From Crocinitomicaceae bacterium (GTDB taxonomy: Bacteria > Bacteroidota > Bacteroidia > Flavobacteriales_D > Crocinitomicaceae), in NCBI GenBank assembly GCA_024639405.1, contig JAHEIL010000051.1:1-34203 (forward strand): a stretch of 34,203 nt of DNA, written 5' to 3'. Below, piece by piece: positions 12,133 through 20,935 of the stretch; position 1 is the stretch's first letter; every line of letters begins with the position of its first letter. Position numbers and translations under genes: made by a program. The notes under the pieces were generated by a model that was not told the DNA's origin, searched no databases, and saw only the letters and a list, made by a program, of their open reading frames with translations.

Positions 12133-12165
12133 AATAGTCTTGTTTTAAATCAATTATTTTTTTGG

Positions 12166-12173
12166 CAAATGTA
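12166..12173 (-). promoter_or_regulatory. -7 promoter element (TACATTTG) of the DUF47-pit operon
   Basis: The minus strand reads TACATTTG, a perfect TAnnTTTG, 33 nt from the DUF47 ATG. A TTG is present only 10 nt further upstream, not at the standard spacing, which would suit an activator-dependent promoter. Confidence 0.55.
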
Positions 12174-12211
12174 TTTTATATTTCAAGACGAAAACTCTTT
12201 GAAGTAATTTG

Positions 12212-12322
12212 TTAACGTAAAGATAACCTAGCAGAATGTTAAGAAACCATTAACAGATTTAATTTAATGAAAATCAATGGTTTATAAAAACCATTACAAT
12301 CGAATGTTAATTCATTATTAAC
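12212..12322. repeat. Three TTAAC-like direct-repeat pairs with 11-bp phase
   Basis: Pair A: TTAAC at 12212 and ATAAC at 12223. Pair B: TTAAG at 12239 and TTAAC at 12250. Pair C: TTAAT at 12307 and TTAAC at 12318. Within each pair the start-to-start distance is 11 bp, the geometry of PhoB/PhoP half-sites (for example TTAACA direct repeats of Gram-positive PhoP). They are placed nearer the pit side of the region. Confidence 0.45.
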
Positions 12323-12406
12323 TAAAAAACCAACTTATTTTCAAAAAAACTAGTTTAAAACAATGTAAATCAAATAGATATGTGAAAATTTATTCAGTTT
12401 ATGAAT

Positions 12407-12428
12407 GTTACGAAAACGTTACGAAAAT
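12407..12428. repeat. Tandem 11-bp repeat GTTACGAAAAC/T
   Basis: GTTACGAAAAC (12407-12417) is followed directly by GTTACGAAAAT (12418-12428), 10 of 11 bases identical. It is a perfect 11-bp-phased tandem upstream of the porin promoter. Confidence 0.65.
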
Positions 12429-12438
12429 TATTAAAACC

Positions 12439-12476
12439 TTAAGTTATGAATAAGCCAGTATTAAGCCAGTATTAAT
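12439..12476 (+). promoter_or_regulatory. Four-unit 11-bp-phased repeat abutting the porin promoter (candidate Pho box)
   Basis: Five-base units TTAAG (12439), ATAAG (12450), TTAAG (12461) and TTAAT (12472) follow one another at exactly 11 bp. The central pair is an exact tandem of TAAGCCAGTAT (12451-12461, 12462-12472). The array ends 4 bp before the -7 element at 12481, the position expected for a PhoB-like (OmpR-family) activator that contacts RNA polymerase. Confidence 0.6.
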
Positions 12477-12480
12477 CCCT

Positions 12481-12488
12481 TAGTTTTG
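12481..12488 (+). promoter_or_regulatory. -7 promoter element (TAGTTTTG) of the phosphate porin
   Basis: A perfect TAnnTTTG 26 nt before the porin ATG. No clear -33 TTG is present; the 11-bp repeat array occupies that place instead. Confidence 0.6.
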
Positions 12489-12514
12489 CCTCATCAAAAA
12501 TTAAAAATGACAAA

Positions 12515-13920: not shown

Positions 13921-16900
13921 ATGGAAAAAAAAGTACACAATTCAAAAAAAATTAAACAGCTTTTCACAATTCTCTTAGTGTTGTTTTCATTTCAAAATGG
14001 GTTAAAAAGTCAAACTTCTATTGTAGTTAACAGTTTAGCAGATGACGGTAGTGCAGGTACCTTACGTTGGGCAATTGGTCAAGCAAATGCTACAGCTGGT
14101 GGAATTTACGATGAAATTACCTTCAGTGTAACGGGAACAATTGTTTTAACATCTCAATTGCCAACAATTACGCAAAGTTTAACGATTACTGGTCCTGGGC
14201 AAAATAATTTATCCATTGATGGAAATAATTTATACCGAACAGTTTATAATTTGTCTGCAATAACAGTTAACTTTTCAAATATTACATTAAAAAAAGGGAA
14301 TGGGATTTCAGGTGGAATTATTTACAACGAAAATGGAACGTTTACATATTCGAACGTGAAATTTTGTGAAATGACAGCTGGTTCTGCGATATTTCAAAAG
14401 CAAGCTGGGGTTATGACGTTTACCGACTGTTTGTTTACTGGTTTAAGCAAAGGAACAGAGTCTGACCATAGTGGTACACCTGCTGCTATGAGTACCAATG
14501 ATTTAGATTATCCGAACCGTATGTATTTTAATACATGCTCATTTACAAGTAATTCATCTGGTATTTATAATTACCGATTTGCAAAAATCACAAATTGTAC
14601 ATTTACAAACAATACTGCTTACGCGGCTTTGATTCAGGGGGTTCACCGTTACCAAGTATACACTTCAAACTTTACTGGAAATGGAACAGCTGTTGTTACT
14701 GGCGCTTGGATTCCAACAAATTGGTCAATGGGTGCGGAAAATCAATTAATTGAAAACAATGTATTTGTAAATAACACTATAGCAATTAGTTTGGGGAATT
14801 CTTGGAACAATGGAACGACTGTTTACAATGGTGTATCTAGTAATTCAATTGCAACTGTAAGAACGAATTGTTTTGCAGGTAATGGAACAGATATTTCTGG
14901 TGTTGCTGGTTATACCTCTACAGGAAATACCATTGTAACGTTGGCTGCGATCACTGGATCTTCATCCGTTTGTTCAGGTTCAACAATTACTTTAGCTAAT
15001 TCAACTTCAGGAGGAATTTGGTCAAGTTCTAATACTGCCATTGCCACCGTAAATTCATCGGGTGTTGTTACACCTATTGCAGCAGGAACAGTTGTTATAT
15101 CTTATTCTATGACTGGAGCATGTGCAAATGCAGCTGTAACAAAAACTATTACTGTCAATGCGCCATCATTTAATACAACGTTAGCATCAGGAAACTTTGT
15201 TTGGTTAGGAACAACTTCAACTGATTGGTCTACAGTCAGTAATTGGGCTTCTTATAATGGAACAGCTTTAGTGCCAGCCACAGCAATCCCGACAACATCA
15301 GCAATTACCATAGTACCATTGAACGGAACATGTGTTTTGAATCAACCAACATTAGCGTCTGGAACAGTAAGTACATCATCTATCATTATTGAATCTGGAG
15401 CGACGTTAACATTGGGATCTGGAACATTAAATGTAGCAGGTGATTTTACGAATAAAGGAACATTCACTGCTGGAACCGGAACAGTTGAGTTCAATGGATC
15501 AGCTCTACAAACCTTAACAGGTTCAACTTCTTTTTACAATTTGACCATGAATAATTCAGCGGGTTTATCGTTGAATAGTCCAATTAAGGTTAGTAATAAC
15601 TTAACACTAACTTCAGGTGTAATCAATGCTTCAAACCCAACTACTCATGTCAATGCGGACGGAACAAGTTTGGCAGGTTGGACAATCTCAGCTACAGGTC
15701 ATGTAATAGTTGATCCTTCGCAAGGAAATACAGGTTCTAGTTTTAAAATTGGCGGTATAGGTTGGAACAATATGTCCATGATTAAAGATATTGGTGAAGA
15801 TTTTAAAAACAAAATTATTCAATTTGATTACCGTCCAACAGGAAGTTCTGGTTTCGCGGGAGTTACTTTTGGAGCACCCATCAGTGGAAGTGGTGGTATT
15901 GGTTTAAATTTGGGTGTTGGAACACAAACAACCAATGGTTTAGGTGATACACAGAATTTCTTATATCAAAATGCGAGTAACAATACCTACACGTTTGTTG
16001 CAGGAACTTGGTATACCATTAAAATTGTAACAGATAATGGAACTGTAGGCGGAACAAAATGGTATGTAAACAATGTATTAGTTGGTAATAGTGGTGTTAA
16101 CGCAATAGGAAGCGGCACGTATATTGGATTTGTTAATAATAACATGAGTACAGCTTCTACAGGTGTTAATTTTGATAATATTTCAATAACTTCAACTGCT
16201 GGAAGTGTTACATTAGGATCAAGTTCAGCATCACCAGGTTCATTAACATATACAGGCGGAACAATCAAAGGAAAGCTTAAGCGTTATTTCAGTGCGGCAG
16301 CAACTACAACAACAGGCGGATTGTTTCCAGTAGGAACAGCAACATACAATCGTTTTGCAAAAGTGAATTTTACAAGTTCACCAGGAACGAATCAGTTTTT
16401 AACAGTTGAATACAAAACAGGTGCTCCGTTAAACGCATCTAATACACCATTGTATGCAGGCTTACCAACAACCATAGCGGGACAACTTGTACAAGTGTAT
16501 TCAGCCGATGGTTACTGGCAAATAGATCCAACTGATAACAACTATGCATCAACGATTTGTACAACACCATACAACTTGACGTTGAATGCAAATAATTTAA
16601 CCAACTTCAATAACCCAAGTACGGTAAGAATCATCAAAGCTGCAGGATCAAATACCTTAGCGAATCACCACGTTTCTTGGCAAGGAGCAGGAACTCACAC
16701 ACCGAATGCAACAACCAATTCAACAGTTGCAGAGATTTCAAGCACGAATTGTACAGGCTTTAGTTGGTTTAATATTGGAACGTGGAACGATCAAGCCTTA
16801 CCAGTAGAATTAACTTCTTTTACAAGTGAATGTAAGGAAACAGGAGTTGATATCAACTGGCAAACCGCTTCTGAACATAACAGTTCGCACTTTACAGTAG

Positions 16901-17349
16901 AAAAATCACGTGATGGCTTGAATTGGAAGCATTTGGCTTCACTTGAAGCGGCTGGAAATAGCTCAAATCTTATCAACTACAGTTATGTTGATGCTGAGAA
17001 AAGTGGAGTTGCTTATTACCGATTACAGCAAGTTGATCAGGATGGAACAGAAAAAACATATGGTCCTATCAGTTCAAACTGCAATAACAACGGAATCAGT
17101 TTGAAAACATTCCCAAATCCAAGTACTAACCACTTCACTCTAACAATAGAAAGTGAGCGAGCAATTGTTTCAGCACATATCACATTAAAAGATGTATTTG
17201 GTCGCGTTATAGCAACAAAACCAGTTTCAATAGTTGCAGGTGAAACTCAGGTTGAATTGTCAGGAGCAGATATTGAAAACGGAATATATTCTGTTACATT
17301 GGAAGAAAATGGAACAGCGATTAAAACGGTAAAACAAGTGATACTCTAA
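13921..17349 (+). CDS. Giant T9SS-secreted multi-domain protein, paralogue 1
   Basis: The 1142-aa protein starts with a signal peptide (about 1-31, ending NGLKSQ). Next comes a right-handed beta-helix-like region (33-340) with the opening GTLRWAIGQANATAGGIYD, and an Ig/BIG2-like domain (about 343-415, IWSSSNTAIATVNSSGVVTP). The WLGTTSTDWSTVSNW motif follows (425-440), then a LamG/concanavalin-like region (about 606-758) and a fibronectin-like module from ALPVELTSF (958). A type A T9SS sorting domain ends the protein (FPNPS near 1063). It is exported by Sec, crosses the outer membrane by T9SS and is probably attached to or released from the cell surface. Adhesin or matrix protein is plausible; no enzymatic domain was recognised. 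It is the first of three tandem T9SS cargo genes, each with its own terminator. The 3' part is nearly identical to paralogue 2. Confidence 0.85.
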   Translation: MEKKVHNSKKIKQLFTILLVLFSFQNGLKSQTSIVVNSLADDGSAGTLRWAIGQANATAGGIYDEITFSVTGTIVLTSQLPTITQSLTITGPGQNNLSIDGNNLYRTVYNLSAITVNFSNITLKKGNGISGGIIYNENGTFTYSNVKFCEMTAGSAIFQKQAGVMTFTDCLFTGLSKGTESDHSGTPAAMSTNDLDYPNRMYFNTCSFTSNSSGIYNYRFAKITNCTFTNNTAYAALIQGVHRYQVYTSNFTGNGTAVVTGAWIPTNWSMGAENQLIENNVFVNNTIAISLGNSWNNGTTVYNGVSSNSIATVRTNCFAGNGTDISGVAGYTSTGNTIVTLAAITGSSSVCSGSTITLANSTSGGIWSSSNTAIATVNSSGVVTPIAAGTVVISYSMTGACANAAVTKTITVNAPSFNTTLASGNFVWLGTTSTDWSTVSNWASYNGTALVPATAIPTTSAITIVPLNGTCVLNQPTLASGTVSTSSIIIESGATLTLGSGTLNVAGDFTNKGTFTAGTGTVEFNGSALQTLTGSTSFYNLTMNNSAGLSLNSPIKVSNNLTLTSGVINASNPTTHVNADGTSLAGWTISATGHVIVDPSQGNTGSSFKIGGIGWNNMSMIKDIGEDFKNKIIQFDYRPTGSSGFAGVTFGAPISGSGGIGLNLGVGTQTTNGLGDTQNFLYQNASNNTYTFVAGTWYTIKIVTDNGTVGGTKWYVNNVLVGNSGVNAIGSGTYIGFVNNNMSTASTGVNFDNISITSTAGSVTLGSSSASPGSLTYTGGTIKGKLKRYFSAAATTTTGGLFPVGTATYNRFAKVNFTSSPGTNQFLTVEYKTGAPLNASNTPLYAGLPTTIAGQLVQVYSADGYWQIDPTDNNYASTICTTPYNLTLNANNLTNFNNPSTVRIIKAAGSNTLANHHVSWQGAGTHTPNATTNSTVAEISSTNCTGFSWFNIGTWNDQALPVELTSFTSECKETGVDINWQTASEHNSSHFTVEKSRDGLNWKHLASLEAAGNSSNLINYSYVDAEKSGVAYYRLQQVDQDGTEKTYGPISSNCNNNGISLKTFPNPSTNHFTLTIESERAIVSAHITLKDVFGRVIATKPVSIVAGETQVELSGADIENGIYSVTLEENGTAIKTVKQVIL
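16222..16882 (+). repeat. Near-identical DNA patch shared with 19808-20468
   Basis: This 661-bp segment aligns without gaps to 19808-20468 (constant offset 3586). It includes an exact match of 169 bp (16445-16613 to 20031-20199). Just upstream the two genes encode similar protein but differ at many synonymous sites, so the patch has a sharp edge, as expected from gene conversion. Confidence 0.85.
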
Positions 17350-17370
17350 ATTTTACAACAAAATAAATTA

Positions 17371-17401
17371 AAAAAAGGGCAAATAAATTTGCCCTTTTTT
17401 T
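17371..17401. terminator. Intrinsic terminator after T9SS cargo gene 1
   Basis: Arms AAAAAAGGGCAAAT and ATTTGCCCTTTTTT are perfectly complementary around AA (17371-17400), with a built-in T run. The symmetry would also serve the other strand. Confidence 0.85.
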
Positions 17402-17491
17402 GGTATATAATATTTTTTTATTTTTTTTGTGAAAATTTTATCACATAGGAGAAACCATTTTTCGAAAATCATAAATTTTACAACATAATTT

Positions 17492-20400
17492 ATGAAAAAA
17501 GAACTTCAAAAAACTGGTTTATTACAAAAATTAATTTTTGCAATCATATTTCTTTTTGCATTTAACATCTCGAATGCACAAACGTCTATCGTTGTAACTA
17601 GTTTAGCTGATAATACGAATGCTGGAACTTTGCGTTGGGCGATTGGTCAAGCAAATGCTACAGCTGGTGGAATTTACGATGCGATAACCTTTAATGTAAC
17701 AGGTACAATCGTATTAACATCTCATTTACCAACGATAACGCAATCAGTAACCATAACTGGGCCAGGTCAGAACAACTTGACGATAGATGGTAATAATTTA
17801 TACAGAGTAATTTACAATACCTCATCCATTGCTATTTCTATTTCTGATATGACGTTAACTAAAGGTTATACAGGAACAATTGACCAAGGTGGTGGTTTAA
17901 TTTGGAATCAAAATGGAACATTGACTATAACGAATGTAAAGTTTACAACAATGACACTTAATGTAACACAATCTGCAGCTTTTTGTCAAAAACAGGCTGG
18001 TGTTACAACTTTTAATAATTGTATTTTCAACAATTTAAATGCAGGTATTAATGCGAATCATGGAAGCACACCAAATCCGACTAGCTCAAATGATGCGGAT
18101 TATCAAAACCGTGTGTATGTGAATAACTGTACTTTTTCAAATAATGTATATGGTATACAAACAGAAAGATTTACAAAAATTGACAATTGTACTTTTTTAA
18201 ATAATACTGTATGTGCGGCATCTCTTCAAGGATTGAATCGTCAAACGGTAATAAATTCAATTTTTTCAAATAATGTCAAAGGCATAAGAACAAGTTGTGG
18301 AATGCCGACTACTTGGACATTAACTTCATTAAATCAATTAATTGAGTATAATACGTTTGAAGCTAATTCAATAGCTGTTGAATTAGCAAATACTTGGACT
18401 GCTACAATGTCTACATCTCCAAATTACATAGCAACTGTTAGAAATAATTGTTTTGTTGGAAACACAACAACAATTAATGGAGTTGCGGGTTATACAGAAT
18501 CTAATAATTTAACAACAATTATTTCGTCAATTACAGGTTCCTCAACGGTGTGTTTAAGTAACAAATTATTTTTATCAAATTCAACGATTGGTGGTACTTG
18601 GTCGAGTTCTAATACAGCGATTGCAACTGTAGATTCACTAGGTGTTGTTTCACCTATAAGTGCTGGTTCTGTAATAATTTATTACACGATTAATTCAGGG
18701 GCTTGTTCAGGAGCAGTAACTAAAAATGTTTCAGTAATTACTCCAACATTTAATACACCGTTTAATTCAGGAGATTACATATGGTTTGGATCATCATCTA
18801 CAGATTGGGCAACTTTAAGTAATTGGCGTATATATGATGGAATTAATTTTAACTTGGCAACACAGTTTCCTGCGAATACTGATTCAATAACTATTCCACT
18901 GACAGGTTTTTGTGTAACCAACCAACCAACGTTAACTTCAGGAAATATAGCTTTGTCTAAAATAATTATTGAACCAGGAGCATATTTAACATTAGGTTCT
19001 GCTACTTTGAGTTTAACAGGTGATTTTATTAATAATGGTTATTTTATTCCTGGAACAGGAACGCTTGAATTTAATGGTTCGTCAATTCAAAATCTCTATG
19101 GTAAAACAAATTTTTATAATTTAACACTTAACAACTCATCAGGATTAGTTTTAAATAGTCCAGTAAAAGTAATAAATAATCTTACTTTAATTGCAGGAAC
19201 AATAAACGCATCAAACCCATCAGTTTGGATGAGTCACGATGGAGCAAGTTTGAATGGTTGGACAGTTTCAGGAGCTGGAGGAGTTGGTGCAAAAATTGAT
19301 CCTTCAATTGGAAATTTAGGCTCAAGTTATAAAATTGGAGGTACAGGTTTGAATAATATGTCAATGAAAATGGATTTAGGTGATAATTTTAAAAATAAAA
19401 TTATTCAGTTTGATTACCGACCAACTGGAACTACAGGATTTGCTGGTGTCACTATTGGCGCACTTTCAACAGGGAGTAGTGGTTTAGGATTAAATCTTGG
19501 TGTTGGAACTCAAACTACATTAGGATTTAATAGTACACAAAACTTTTTATATCAAAATGCGAGCAATAATACATACACATTTGTTGCTGGCACATGGTAC
19601 ACTATCAAAATTGTTACAGACAACGGAACAGTTGGAGGCACAAAATGGTATGTTAATGATGTTTTAGTAGGGAATAGTGGTAGTTTTGCTATTGGTAATG
19701 GGACTTATATTGGATTTGTCAATAATAATATGAGTACAAGTTCTACAGCCGTAAATTTTGATAATATTTCAATAACTTCAACTTCTGGTCAACTGTCGTT
19801 AGGTGAAAGTTCAGCATCACCAGGTTCATTAACATATACAAGTGGAACAATTACAGGAAAGCTTAAGCGTTATTTCAGTGCGTCAGCAACTACAACAACA
19901 GGTGGTTTGTTTCCAGTAGGAACAGCAGCATACAATCGTTCAGCCAAAGTGAATTTTACAAGTTCACCAGGAACGAATCAGTTTTTAACAGTTGAATACA
20001 AAACAGGTGCTCCGTTAGATGCTTCAAACGCACCATTGTATGCAGGCTTACCAACAACCATAGCGGGACAACTTGTACAAGTGTATTCAGCCGATGGTTA
20101 CTGGCAAATAGATCCAACTGATAACAACTATGCATCAACGATTTGTACAACACCATACAACTTGACGTTGAATGCAAATAATTTAACCAACTTCAATAAT
20201 CCAAGTACGGTAAGAATTATCAAAGCGGCAGGATCAAATACCTTAGCGAATCACCACGTTTCTTGGCAAGGAGCAGGAACTCACACACCGAATACAACAA
20301 CCAATGCAACAGTTGCAGAGATTTCAAGCACGAATTGTACCGGCTTTAGTTGGTTTAATATTGGAACATGGAACGACCAAGCCTTACCAGTAGAATTAAC

Positions 20401-20935
20401 TTCTTTTTCAAGTGAATGTAAGGAATCAGGAGTTGATATCAACTGGCAAACCGCTTCTGAATATAACAGTGAGCTCTTTACTTTAGAAAAATCACGTGAT
20501 GGTGAGAATTGGCAACAATTATCCACACAAACAGCAGCAGGAACAAGTACATCGTTACAAAATTACAGTTACACAGATAACGAAAAGAATGGTTTGAGTT
20601 ATTACCGATTACAGCAAATTGACCAAGATGGCAATCAAAAAATGTATGGTCCAATCAGTGCTAACTGCGAATTTGGAGGCTTGAGCGTACTTACATATCC
20701 AAACCCAAGTTCAGATTACGTGAACGTGATGATAGAAAGCGACAAAGCCATTGATAAGGCTACAATCGTATTAAAAGACCAATTAGGGCACTTAGTTTAT
20801 GAAGCAACACGTACAATTGAACGCGGCACGACACAATTGGTATTAAACGATGTGCAATTAGCACCAGGCGTTTATACTTTTGCACTAGCTGAGAACCAAT
20901 TAGAGCTTCACGTAAGCAAGCACATAGTAAGGTAA
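17492..20935 (+). CDS. Giant T9SS-secreted multi-domain protein, paralogue 2
   Basis: The 1147-aa protein has the same plan as the preceding one. It has a signal peptide (about 1-30, ending ISNAQ), a beta-helix-like region opening with GTLRWAIGQANATAGGIYD, and an Ig/BIG2-like domain near 345-420 (WSSSNTAIATVDSLGVVSP). The WFGSSSTDWATLSNW motif, a LamG-like region (about 612-766), an ALPVELTSF module (965) and a T9SS sorting domain (YPNPSSDY at 1068) follow. The last ~95 codons and the 3' untranslated region are not those of paralogue 1 but match gene 3 almost base for base, so this gene is a mosaic of its two neighbours. The likely role is a cell-surface or secreted adhesin; the ligand is unknown. 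A long terminator hairpin follows the stop codon. Confidence 0.85.
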   Translation: MKKELQKTGLLQKLIFAIIFLFAFNISNAQTSIVVTSLADNTNAGTLRWAIGQANATAGGIYDAITFNVTGTIVLTSHLPTITQSVTITGPGQNNLTIDGNNLYRVIYNTSSIAISISDMTLTKGYTGTIDQGGGLIWNQNGTLTITNVKFTTMTLNVTQSAAFCQKQAGVTTFNNCIFNNLNAGINANHGSTPNPTSSNDADYQNRVYVNNCTFSNNVYGIQTERFTKIDNCTFLNNTVCAASLQGLNRQTVINSIFSNNVKGIRTSCGMPTTWTLTSLNQLIEYNTFEANSIAVELANTWTATMSTSPNYIATVRNNCFVGNTTTINGVAGYTESNNLTTIISSITGSSTVCLSNKLFLSNSTIGGTWSSSNTAIATVDSLGVVSPISAGSVIIYYTINSGACSGAVTKNVSVITPTFNTPFNSGDYIWFGSSSTDWATLSNWRIYDGINFNLATQFPANTDSITIPLTGFCVTNQPTLTSGNIALSKIIIEPGAYLTLGSATLSLTGDFINNGYFIPGTGTLEFNGSSIQNLYGKTNFYNLTLNNSSGLVLNSPVKVINNLTLIAGTINASNPSVWMSHDGASLNGWTVSGAGGVGAKIDPSIGNLGSSYKIGGTGLNNMSMKMDLGDNFKNKIIQFDYRPTGTTGFAGVTIGALSTGSSGLGLNLGVGTQTTLGFNSTQNFLYQNASNNTYTFVAGTWYTIKIVTDNGTVGGTKWYVNDVLVGNSGSFAIGNGTYIGFVNNNMSTSSTAVNFDNISITSTSGQLSLGESSASPGSLTYTSGTITGKLKRYFSASATTTTGGLFPVGTAAYNRSAKVNFTSSPGTNQFLTVEYKTGAPLDASNAPLYAGLPTTIAGQLVQVYSADGYWQIDPTDNNYASTICTTPYNLTLNANNLTNFNNPSTVRIIKAAGSNTLANHHVSWQGAGTHTPNTTTNATVAEISSTNCTGFSWFNIGTWNDQALPVELTSFSSECKESGVDINWQTASEYNSELFTLEKSRDGENWQQLSTQTAAGTSTSLQNYSYTDNEKNGLSYYRLQQIDQDGNQKMYGPISANCEFGGLSVLTYPNPSSDYVNVMIESDKAIDKATIVLKDQLGHLVYEATRTIERGTTQLVLNDVQLAPGVYTFALAENQLELHVSKHIVR
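19808..20468 (+). repeat. Near-identical DNA patch shared with 16222-16882
   Basis: Second copy of the 661-bp segment, gap-free at offset 3586. It ends in the fibronectin-like module just before the two genes diverge. Confidence 0.85.

Follow-up and report, generated by a model that had tools for sequence, protein, structure and literature searches.

Direct repeats of 11-bp period as candidate Pho boxes between the DUF47-PiT and porin genes of a Crocinitomicaceae bacterium

What reads the short direct repeats that recur every 11 bp between the DUF47-PiT gene pair and the divergent porin gene of a Crocinitomicaceae bacterium? The repeats lie in a 382-bp intergenic gap (positions 12133–12514) of the window, the whole stretch of DNA analyzed here, which is an entire contig (34,203 nucleotides) of a 2.63-Mb genome. 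A preliminary description, made from the letters alone, had proposed them as candidate Pho boxes next to phosphate genes, and the neighbors that it named were confirmed by profile matches. The minus strand encodes a PiT phosphate transporter (PF01384, 10023–11459, 2.7e-97) and a DUF47/PhoU_div protein (PF01865, 11485–12132, 8.6e-23), and the plus strand encodes an outer-membrane porin of the Porin_O_P family (PF07396, 12515–13717, 8.2e-28). The PiT and Porin_O_P matches are each the sole one in the genome. No match to the PhoU family (PF01895) was obtained in a profile search of the genome; the absence of a Pst system was dropped as a claim, because a PF12849 protein was matched despite the missing PhoU. 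Behind the porin gene, two long and similar secreted proteins are encoded in tandem (13921–17349 and 17492–20935).

We compared the gap, which is 77% A+T, with itself. At a lag of 11, 151 matches were found against 120.0 expected (z = 3.57), and every other lag from 6 to 33 remained at z ≤ 1.12; at lag 20, weaker runs were in excess. The longest 11-bp identity run (11/11) was equaled in none of 1000 dinucleotide shuffles, as was the number of runs of at least 9/11, and the number of runs of at least 8/11 was equaled in 0.2% of them. The 11-bp-phased pairs of the preliminary description are indeed present at 12208–12229, 12236–12257, 12304–12325, 12405–12426, and 12458–12479. Its array of four units that ends 4 bp before the porin −7 element is likewise there, the repeats ending at 12476 and the −7 element TAGTTTTG occupying 12481–12488. 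The repeat unit had been given as TTAAC-like; the repeats themselves held up, whereas the core had to be refined to GTTA(A), not TTAAC alone, within a half-site ATGTTAAC. Between the pair at 12405 and the last run, the phase shifts by 2 bases, so the repeats do not form one unbroken array.

The half-site was learned from promoters of TonB-receptor homologues in relatives, the gap being kept out of the training, by expectation-maximization of a tandem half-site that started from a seed half-site. Collapsing by similarity reduced 28 promoters to 22, of which 13 come from the genus and 9 were hand-picked from other genomes of the family. The promoter of the genome's own receptor (L036) and the 94%-identical L037 and L038 were excluded, as were L047, L051, and L060, for which the gene start was not covered, and L168, for which the start codon is apparently misassigned. 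Among spacings of 7–16 bp, 11 was best by far, with a log-likelihood of 175.9 (next, 96.7 at spacing 16), and the half-site learned from these 22 non-own promoters reads ATGTTAACTnA. Inspection by eye of the ORFs before the receptor in the 9 genomes from outside the genus, one of them without any ORF there, revealed no regulator, and a PhoB neighborhood is therefore not claimed for them.

Transferred to the gap, the model recognized six dimers of at least 9 bits at five places, with five of the dimers on the plus strand and one on the minus strand; the box on the DUF47 side is counted on both strands, and the background was tallied likewise. Only three such dimers occur elsewhere in the 34-kb window. 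The 6 dimers in 382 bp compare with 8 in 127 background intergenic stretches (27,878 bp, the background being about 13% of the genome), with at most 2 per stretch. At 17 other spacings (5–22 bp), the gap yielded at most one dimer of at least 9 bits each. The preliminary description had named the frequency of such repeats in shuffled sequence and upstream of unrelated genes as the measure of its proposal. Run as posed, the first comparison gave none of 2000 shuffles of the gap that reached six dimers or the top model score, and in the second, 7 of 165 background upstream regions of the genome contained a coding-strand dimer of at least 9 bits; here, 2 of 20 background stretches deliberately included pattern matches, which makes the control stricter. 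Among 207 upstream regions of the genome, the porin ranks first (19.9 bits), the TonB receptor second (17.9 bits), and DUF47 sixth (13.5 bits). Three of the 7 background sites (13.7–15.5 bits) outscore DUF47, and those of the background genes that are named by Pfam are not phosphate genes. Two features of a Pho box are found here, namely at least two direct repeats of 11-bp period and their location at phosphate-gene promoters with rarity elsewhere.

We aligned six gaps, including that of the window. Three boxes are kept as blocks among them (the DUF47 box, the central one, and the one beside the porin −7), as are the two −7 elements. On the minus strand, the DUF47-side box AGGTTATCTTTACGTTAACAAA (12208–12229, 13.5 bits) consists of two GTTA half-sites 11 bp apart and also scores on the plus strand (12209–12230, 10.2 bits). 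It starts 56 bp from the TA of the DUF47 −7 element and ends 34 bp upstream of this element. For the DUF47-PiT promoter, the putative −7 element is TACATTTG (12166–12173, minus strand), which is invariant at 7 of its 8 columns across five rows; TAnnTTTG is described as the flavobacterial sigma-A −7 consensus. The second box ATGTTAAGAAACCATTAACAGA (12236–12257, plus strand, 10.5 bits) has no invariant column (0/22) and is present only in the window's own genome and the near-identical G003, out of six rows. The central box ATGTTAATTCATTATTAACTAA (12304–12325, plus strand) is the best-scoring one, with the 19.9 bits that give the porin its first rank, and is found at the aligned place in 6/6 rows (14.7–19.9 bits).

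On the porin side, the box ATGTTACGAAAACGTTACGAAA (12405–12426, plus strand, 13.8 bits) has its GTTA pair aligned in 5/6 rows and reaches at least 7 bits in 4/6, the pair being absent from G015. It is followed by the four-unit run (12439–12479, plus strand), whose units at 12439, 12450, 12461, and 12472 read TTAAG, ATAAG, TTAAG, and TTAAT directly upstream of the porin −7. Within this run, the model places a dimer GTATTAAGCCAGTATTAATCCC (12458–12479, plus strand, 9.5 bits), the start of which lies 23 bp from the porin −7 in 4/6 rows and 24 bp in one. In G015, no scoring dimer was detected near the porin −7 (1.6 bits). Across five rows, 6 of the 8 columns of the putative porin −7 element (plus strand) do not vary, and a −33-like TTG is absent from the 10–30 bp upstream of it in all six rows. 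The placement of a box in lieu of the −33 element beside the −7 is thus found on the porin side only. With distances to the −7 of 56 bp for the DUF47 box and 23 bp for the porin box, the two promoters differ by 33 bp, equal to three repeat units. In a count of invariant columns that set aside the row of the near-identical G003 and covered the other five, the boxes at 12208, 12304, and 12458 had 16/22, 12/22, and 8/22, respectively, the box at 12405 had 0/22 (one row with a gap), and the remainder of the gap had 27/256. The gap of the sister genome G003, its two promoters included, matches that of the window nearly letter for letter, and the divergent gene of G003 encodes a different porin that is borderline for PF07396 (19.3 bits, cut-off 20.9). 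The candidate operator region is kept there while the porin differs.

The box on the DUF47 side extends well beyond these six gaps. Upstream DNA was available for 77 of 80 DUF47 loci (missing for L093, L120, and L121), and removal of 7 near-duplicates left 70 promoters, of which 61 contain a dimer of at least 9 bits at spacing 11. At spacing 16, the count drops to 7/70, and at each other spacing from 7 to 16, it is at most 4/70. In 52 of the 63 promoters that reach at least 7 bits, the box lies 55 or 56 bp from a TAnnTTTG element, and 5 of the 63 are without such an element. The genus set, which shares several genomes with the 80-locus set, comprises 18 DUF47 orthologs including the window's own (L020, without upstream DNA, was omitted); 16 of these reach 9 bits at spacing 11, and this spacing is the best in 15. 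The exceptions are L012 (7.7 bits) and L014 of G021, where the DUF47-side score is only 5.0 bits. In L014, the gene divergent from DUF47 encodes a PstS-like PBP_like_2 protein, and GTTAA repeats lie between the two. Three genomes (G015, G009, and G010) have a second DUF47 gene near the first and 23–26% identical to it (L021–L023); the upstream regions of these paralogs score 9.6, 4.4, and −2.2. The DUF47 box persists when its divergent neighbor is unrelated to phosphate, as with the GTPase gene of L016, which we take to be mnmE-like, and the box therefore belongs to DUF47-PiT. Outside the family, ten hand-picked TonB-receptor promoters (L172–L181), the gene starts of which are only approximate, gave a mixed picture: spacing 11 was best in 6/10, at least 9 bits were reached in 4/10, and L181 prefers spacing 9. 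Taken from the sequence, the non-chance repeats, the conserved −7 distances, and the recognition by a model built on TonB-receptor promoters support the proposal of candidate Pho boxes.

Which regulator might bind these boxes? The genome encodes five OmpR-type regulators. Only two of them (L024 and L025) contain the stretch RTIDVH[IV]RKLREK, which we take to resemble PhoB. These two PhoB-like regulators (L029:10299-10970 and 16728-17414) are 53% identical to each other and both flank the TonB-receptor gene in a cluster (L029) that comprises a PhoB-like regulator, the TonB-dependent receptor, a secreted T9SS-tailed protein, the second PhoB-like regulator, and a PhoR-like kinase. For both regulators, the PhoB models TIGR02154 and NF053854 are the top two, with scores below the NCBIfam cut-offs (206.6 of 296.2 and 201.7 of 270 bits), and the PhoR-like kinase reaches no NCBIfam PhoR cut-off. 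In its make-up, the cluster resembles the PhoBR operon of Flavobacterium johnsoniae; the likeness is one of gene content and of the domains of the TonB receptor. The TonB-receptor gene beside phoBR of F. johnsoniae is strongly induced by low phosphate (FC 8.02, FDR 8e-84; PMC8115612, Table 1; the text of that paper gives log2FC where Table 1 gives FC). The OprP gene (PF07396) of the same operon is not induced by low phosphate (FC −1.3, FDR 0.245; PMC8115612), which, by analogy, makes it less likely that the porin responds to phosphate, and the PiT and DUF47 genes are absent from Table 1 of that study.

A response regulator of the OmpR/PhoB type probably uses the repeats as its operators, and most likely it belongs to the PhoB-like pair encoded in the cluster of the TonB receptor and the PhoR-like kinase; the identity of this regulator, phosphate as the signal, and the sign of regulation are what we infer. 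In favor of this explanation, spacing 11 stands out in every spacing test that was run. Against it count the lack of conservation of the box at 12236 and the occurrence of the motif upstream of unrelated genes (the 7 of 165 regions above). One protomer would bind each half-site (ATGTTAAC, core GTTA), and the protomers would be arranged head to tail every 11 bp. Enteric PhoB substitutes for a −33-type element next to the −7/−10 element. The last dimer of the porin promoter would sit against the −7 and stand in for the missing −33 element, and the further boxes upstream would add cooperativity. At DUF47-PiT, a single box would act from three units (33 bp) farther away on the same helix face, an offset that fits contact with RNA polymerase from upstream. 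One protein would act from two distances on one helix face. Activation is likely at the porin; at PiT, either activation or repression may apply.

The E. coli Pho box abuts the −10 element, and no −35 element is present there; likewise, the porin box abuts the −7, and no −33 was seen. The differences from E. coli are the half-site, ATGTTAAC rather than the enteric CTGTCAT, as the preliminary description had stated, the −7 element TAnnTTTG, and the second promoter with its distant box. According to the available part of one report, Pho boxes are 11-nt direct repeats with a consensus that varies between species, and that of E. coli PhoB is made of at least two 11-nt direct repeats upstream of phosphate genes (PMC4415409), as found here. 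The Pho box is a known kind of switch, the DNA signature of which is little described in Bacteroidota. Within this phylum, a motif is on record for Riemerella anatipestifer, a member of the Flavobacteriia. In the accessible part of that study, DAP-seq of PhoP gave the motif TTTAACA, noted as ArcA-like, and PhoPR is reported as upregulated under phosphate starvation (PMC9603813). The motif derives from in vitro binding with 583 peaks, and the same part of the study describes neither an 11-bp repeat nor, among the named PhoP targets, phosphate-uptake genes (PMC9603813). Because TTTAACA is the reverse complement of TGTTAAA, which matches the half-site core TGTTAA, the Riemerella motif is probably the same site.

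OrfA of Sinorhizobium meliloti is a DUF47 relative. The position of the box differs between the two species, as the DUF47 box of the window ends well upstream of the −7 (34 bp) and that of the orfA-pit operon is located near the translation start; in what is available of the S. meliloti work, a PHO box at this pit operon is described, with repression of the operon when phosphate is scarce (PMC3131613). For Bacteroidota, the accessible portions of the literature offer expression data (F. johnsoniae, PMC8115612) and an electrophoretic mobility shift assay in which Bacteroides fragilis PhoB binds the pstC promoter, with no box defined there (PMC3547664), and no operator at the level of repeats. 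In marine bacteria, Pho boxes have been predicted at plcP clusters, as far as the available text goes (PMC4796936). Apart from the Riemerella PhoP motif, no paper that defines a Bacteroidota Pho box was found in the open-access literature searched, and within that literature, the consensus, the two geometries, and the link to DUF47-PiT in Crocinitomicaceae appear to be new. We give roughly even chances to the stronger claim of a defined Bacteroidota Pho box (ATGTTAAC in 11-bp repeats) with two promoter architectures, proximal at 23 bp and distal at 56 bp from TAnnTTTG and three units apart. If it is true, Pho regulons would become predictable from sequence alone in uncultured Crocinitomicaceae, perhaps in Flavobacteriales. 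Given a consensus that is conserved and a promoter geometry that is fixed, one could search uncultured members for the regulon, and a footprint experiment would have a concrete target. The DUF47-PiT operon of Crocinitomicaceae would then stand under a starvation regulator.

The repeats might instead be read by a different regulator of the OmpR type, one that binds GTTA repeats like those of ArcA and serves redox or envelope control; the phosphate genes nearby would then be incidental. E. coli ArcA sites are also direct repeats with 11 bp from center to center, of two to five and often three to five elements, as far as the available part of the source goes; ArcA is described there as a regulator of carbon oxidation, with no link to phosphate genes (PMC3798270). 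The noted similarity of the Riemerella motif to that of ArcA, the presence of five OmpR-type regulators, and a thioredoxin-domain protein behind one of the better background sites point in the same direction. However, it is just the two regulators with the shared stretch (L024 and L025) that flank the TonB-receptor gene, the homologues of which supplied the promoters for the model, and the top two targets among the 207 upstream regions, which represent part of the genome, are the porin and the TonB receptor, so we regard such a regulator as unlikely. Still less probable, in our view, is a purely structural origin of the phasing from phased A-tracts or curved AT-rich promoter DNA without a protein site. 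The high A+T content of the gap and the recurrence of GAAAAC/GAAAAT tracts at 11 bp (12405–12430) would suit it, but the invariant columns of the central and DUF47 boxes are mostly GTTA/TTAA cores, shuffles with the same dinucleotides fail to yield the boxes, and the DUF47 box recurs in the 61 of 70 relatives. Chance or a recent tandem duplication, which could account for the one exact 11-bp copy (TAAGCCAGTAT) and for the non-conserved box at 12236, is the least credible of all and can be dismissed for the whole array, since in the other conserved pairs the copies have diverged and their cores and places recur in relatives, and none of the 1000 and 2000 shuffles matched the gap.

Exact TGTTAWN5TGTTAW was found 4 times in the whole genome versus 16 times for the reversed-pattern control, one of the 4 being the TonB-receptor promoter, and WTRTTAMN4WTRTTAM with at most one mismatch gave 247 matches versus 555, so that across the genome a strict consensus shows no enrichment relative to its reversed form. 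The latter pattern occurs exactly at nine places: in the window, at the TonB-receptor promoter, ppk, gyrB, and L188, and four times inside genes. Upstream of gyrB, where the repeat TTATCAACA is presumably DnaA-like, 2/19 regions reach 9 bits (20 loci, one unreadable). A reverse-oriented box lies 31 bp before the polyphosphate kinase gene ppk (L185, G000:C21:262-279), with a weaker form in relatives. Of the orthologous ppk upstream regions, 11/22 reach 9 bits, 10 of these by the reverse orientation alone, and 3 of the 22 are near-identical. This is suggestive of ppk as a further target, as judged from the sequence comparison; the case for the operators made above draws on the other promoters.

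Two observations concern the neighboring genes in other genomes. The locus L104 (CP034120.1), titled Glaciecola amylolytica, encodes a DUF47 protein 79% identical to that of the window. L177 comes from a different family (f9) of the order; there, the TonB receptor is immediately preceded by a porin fragment with 52% identity to the porin of the window.
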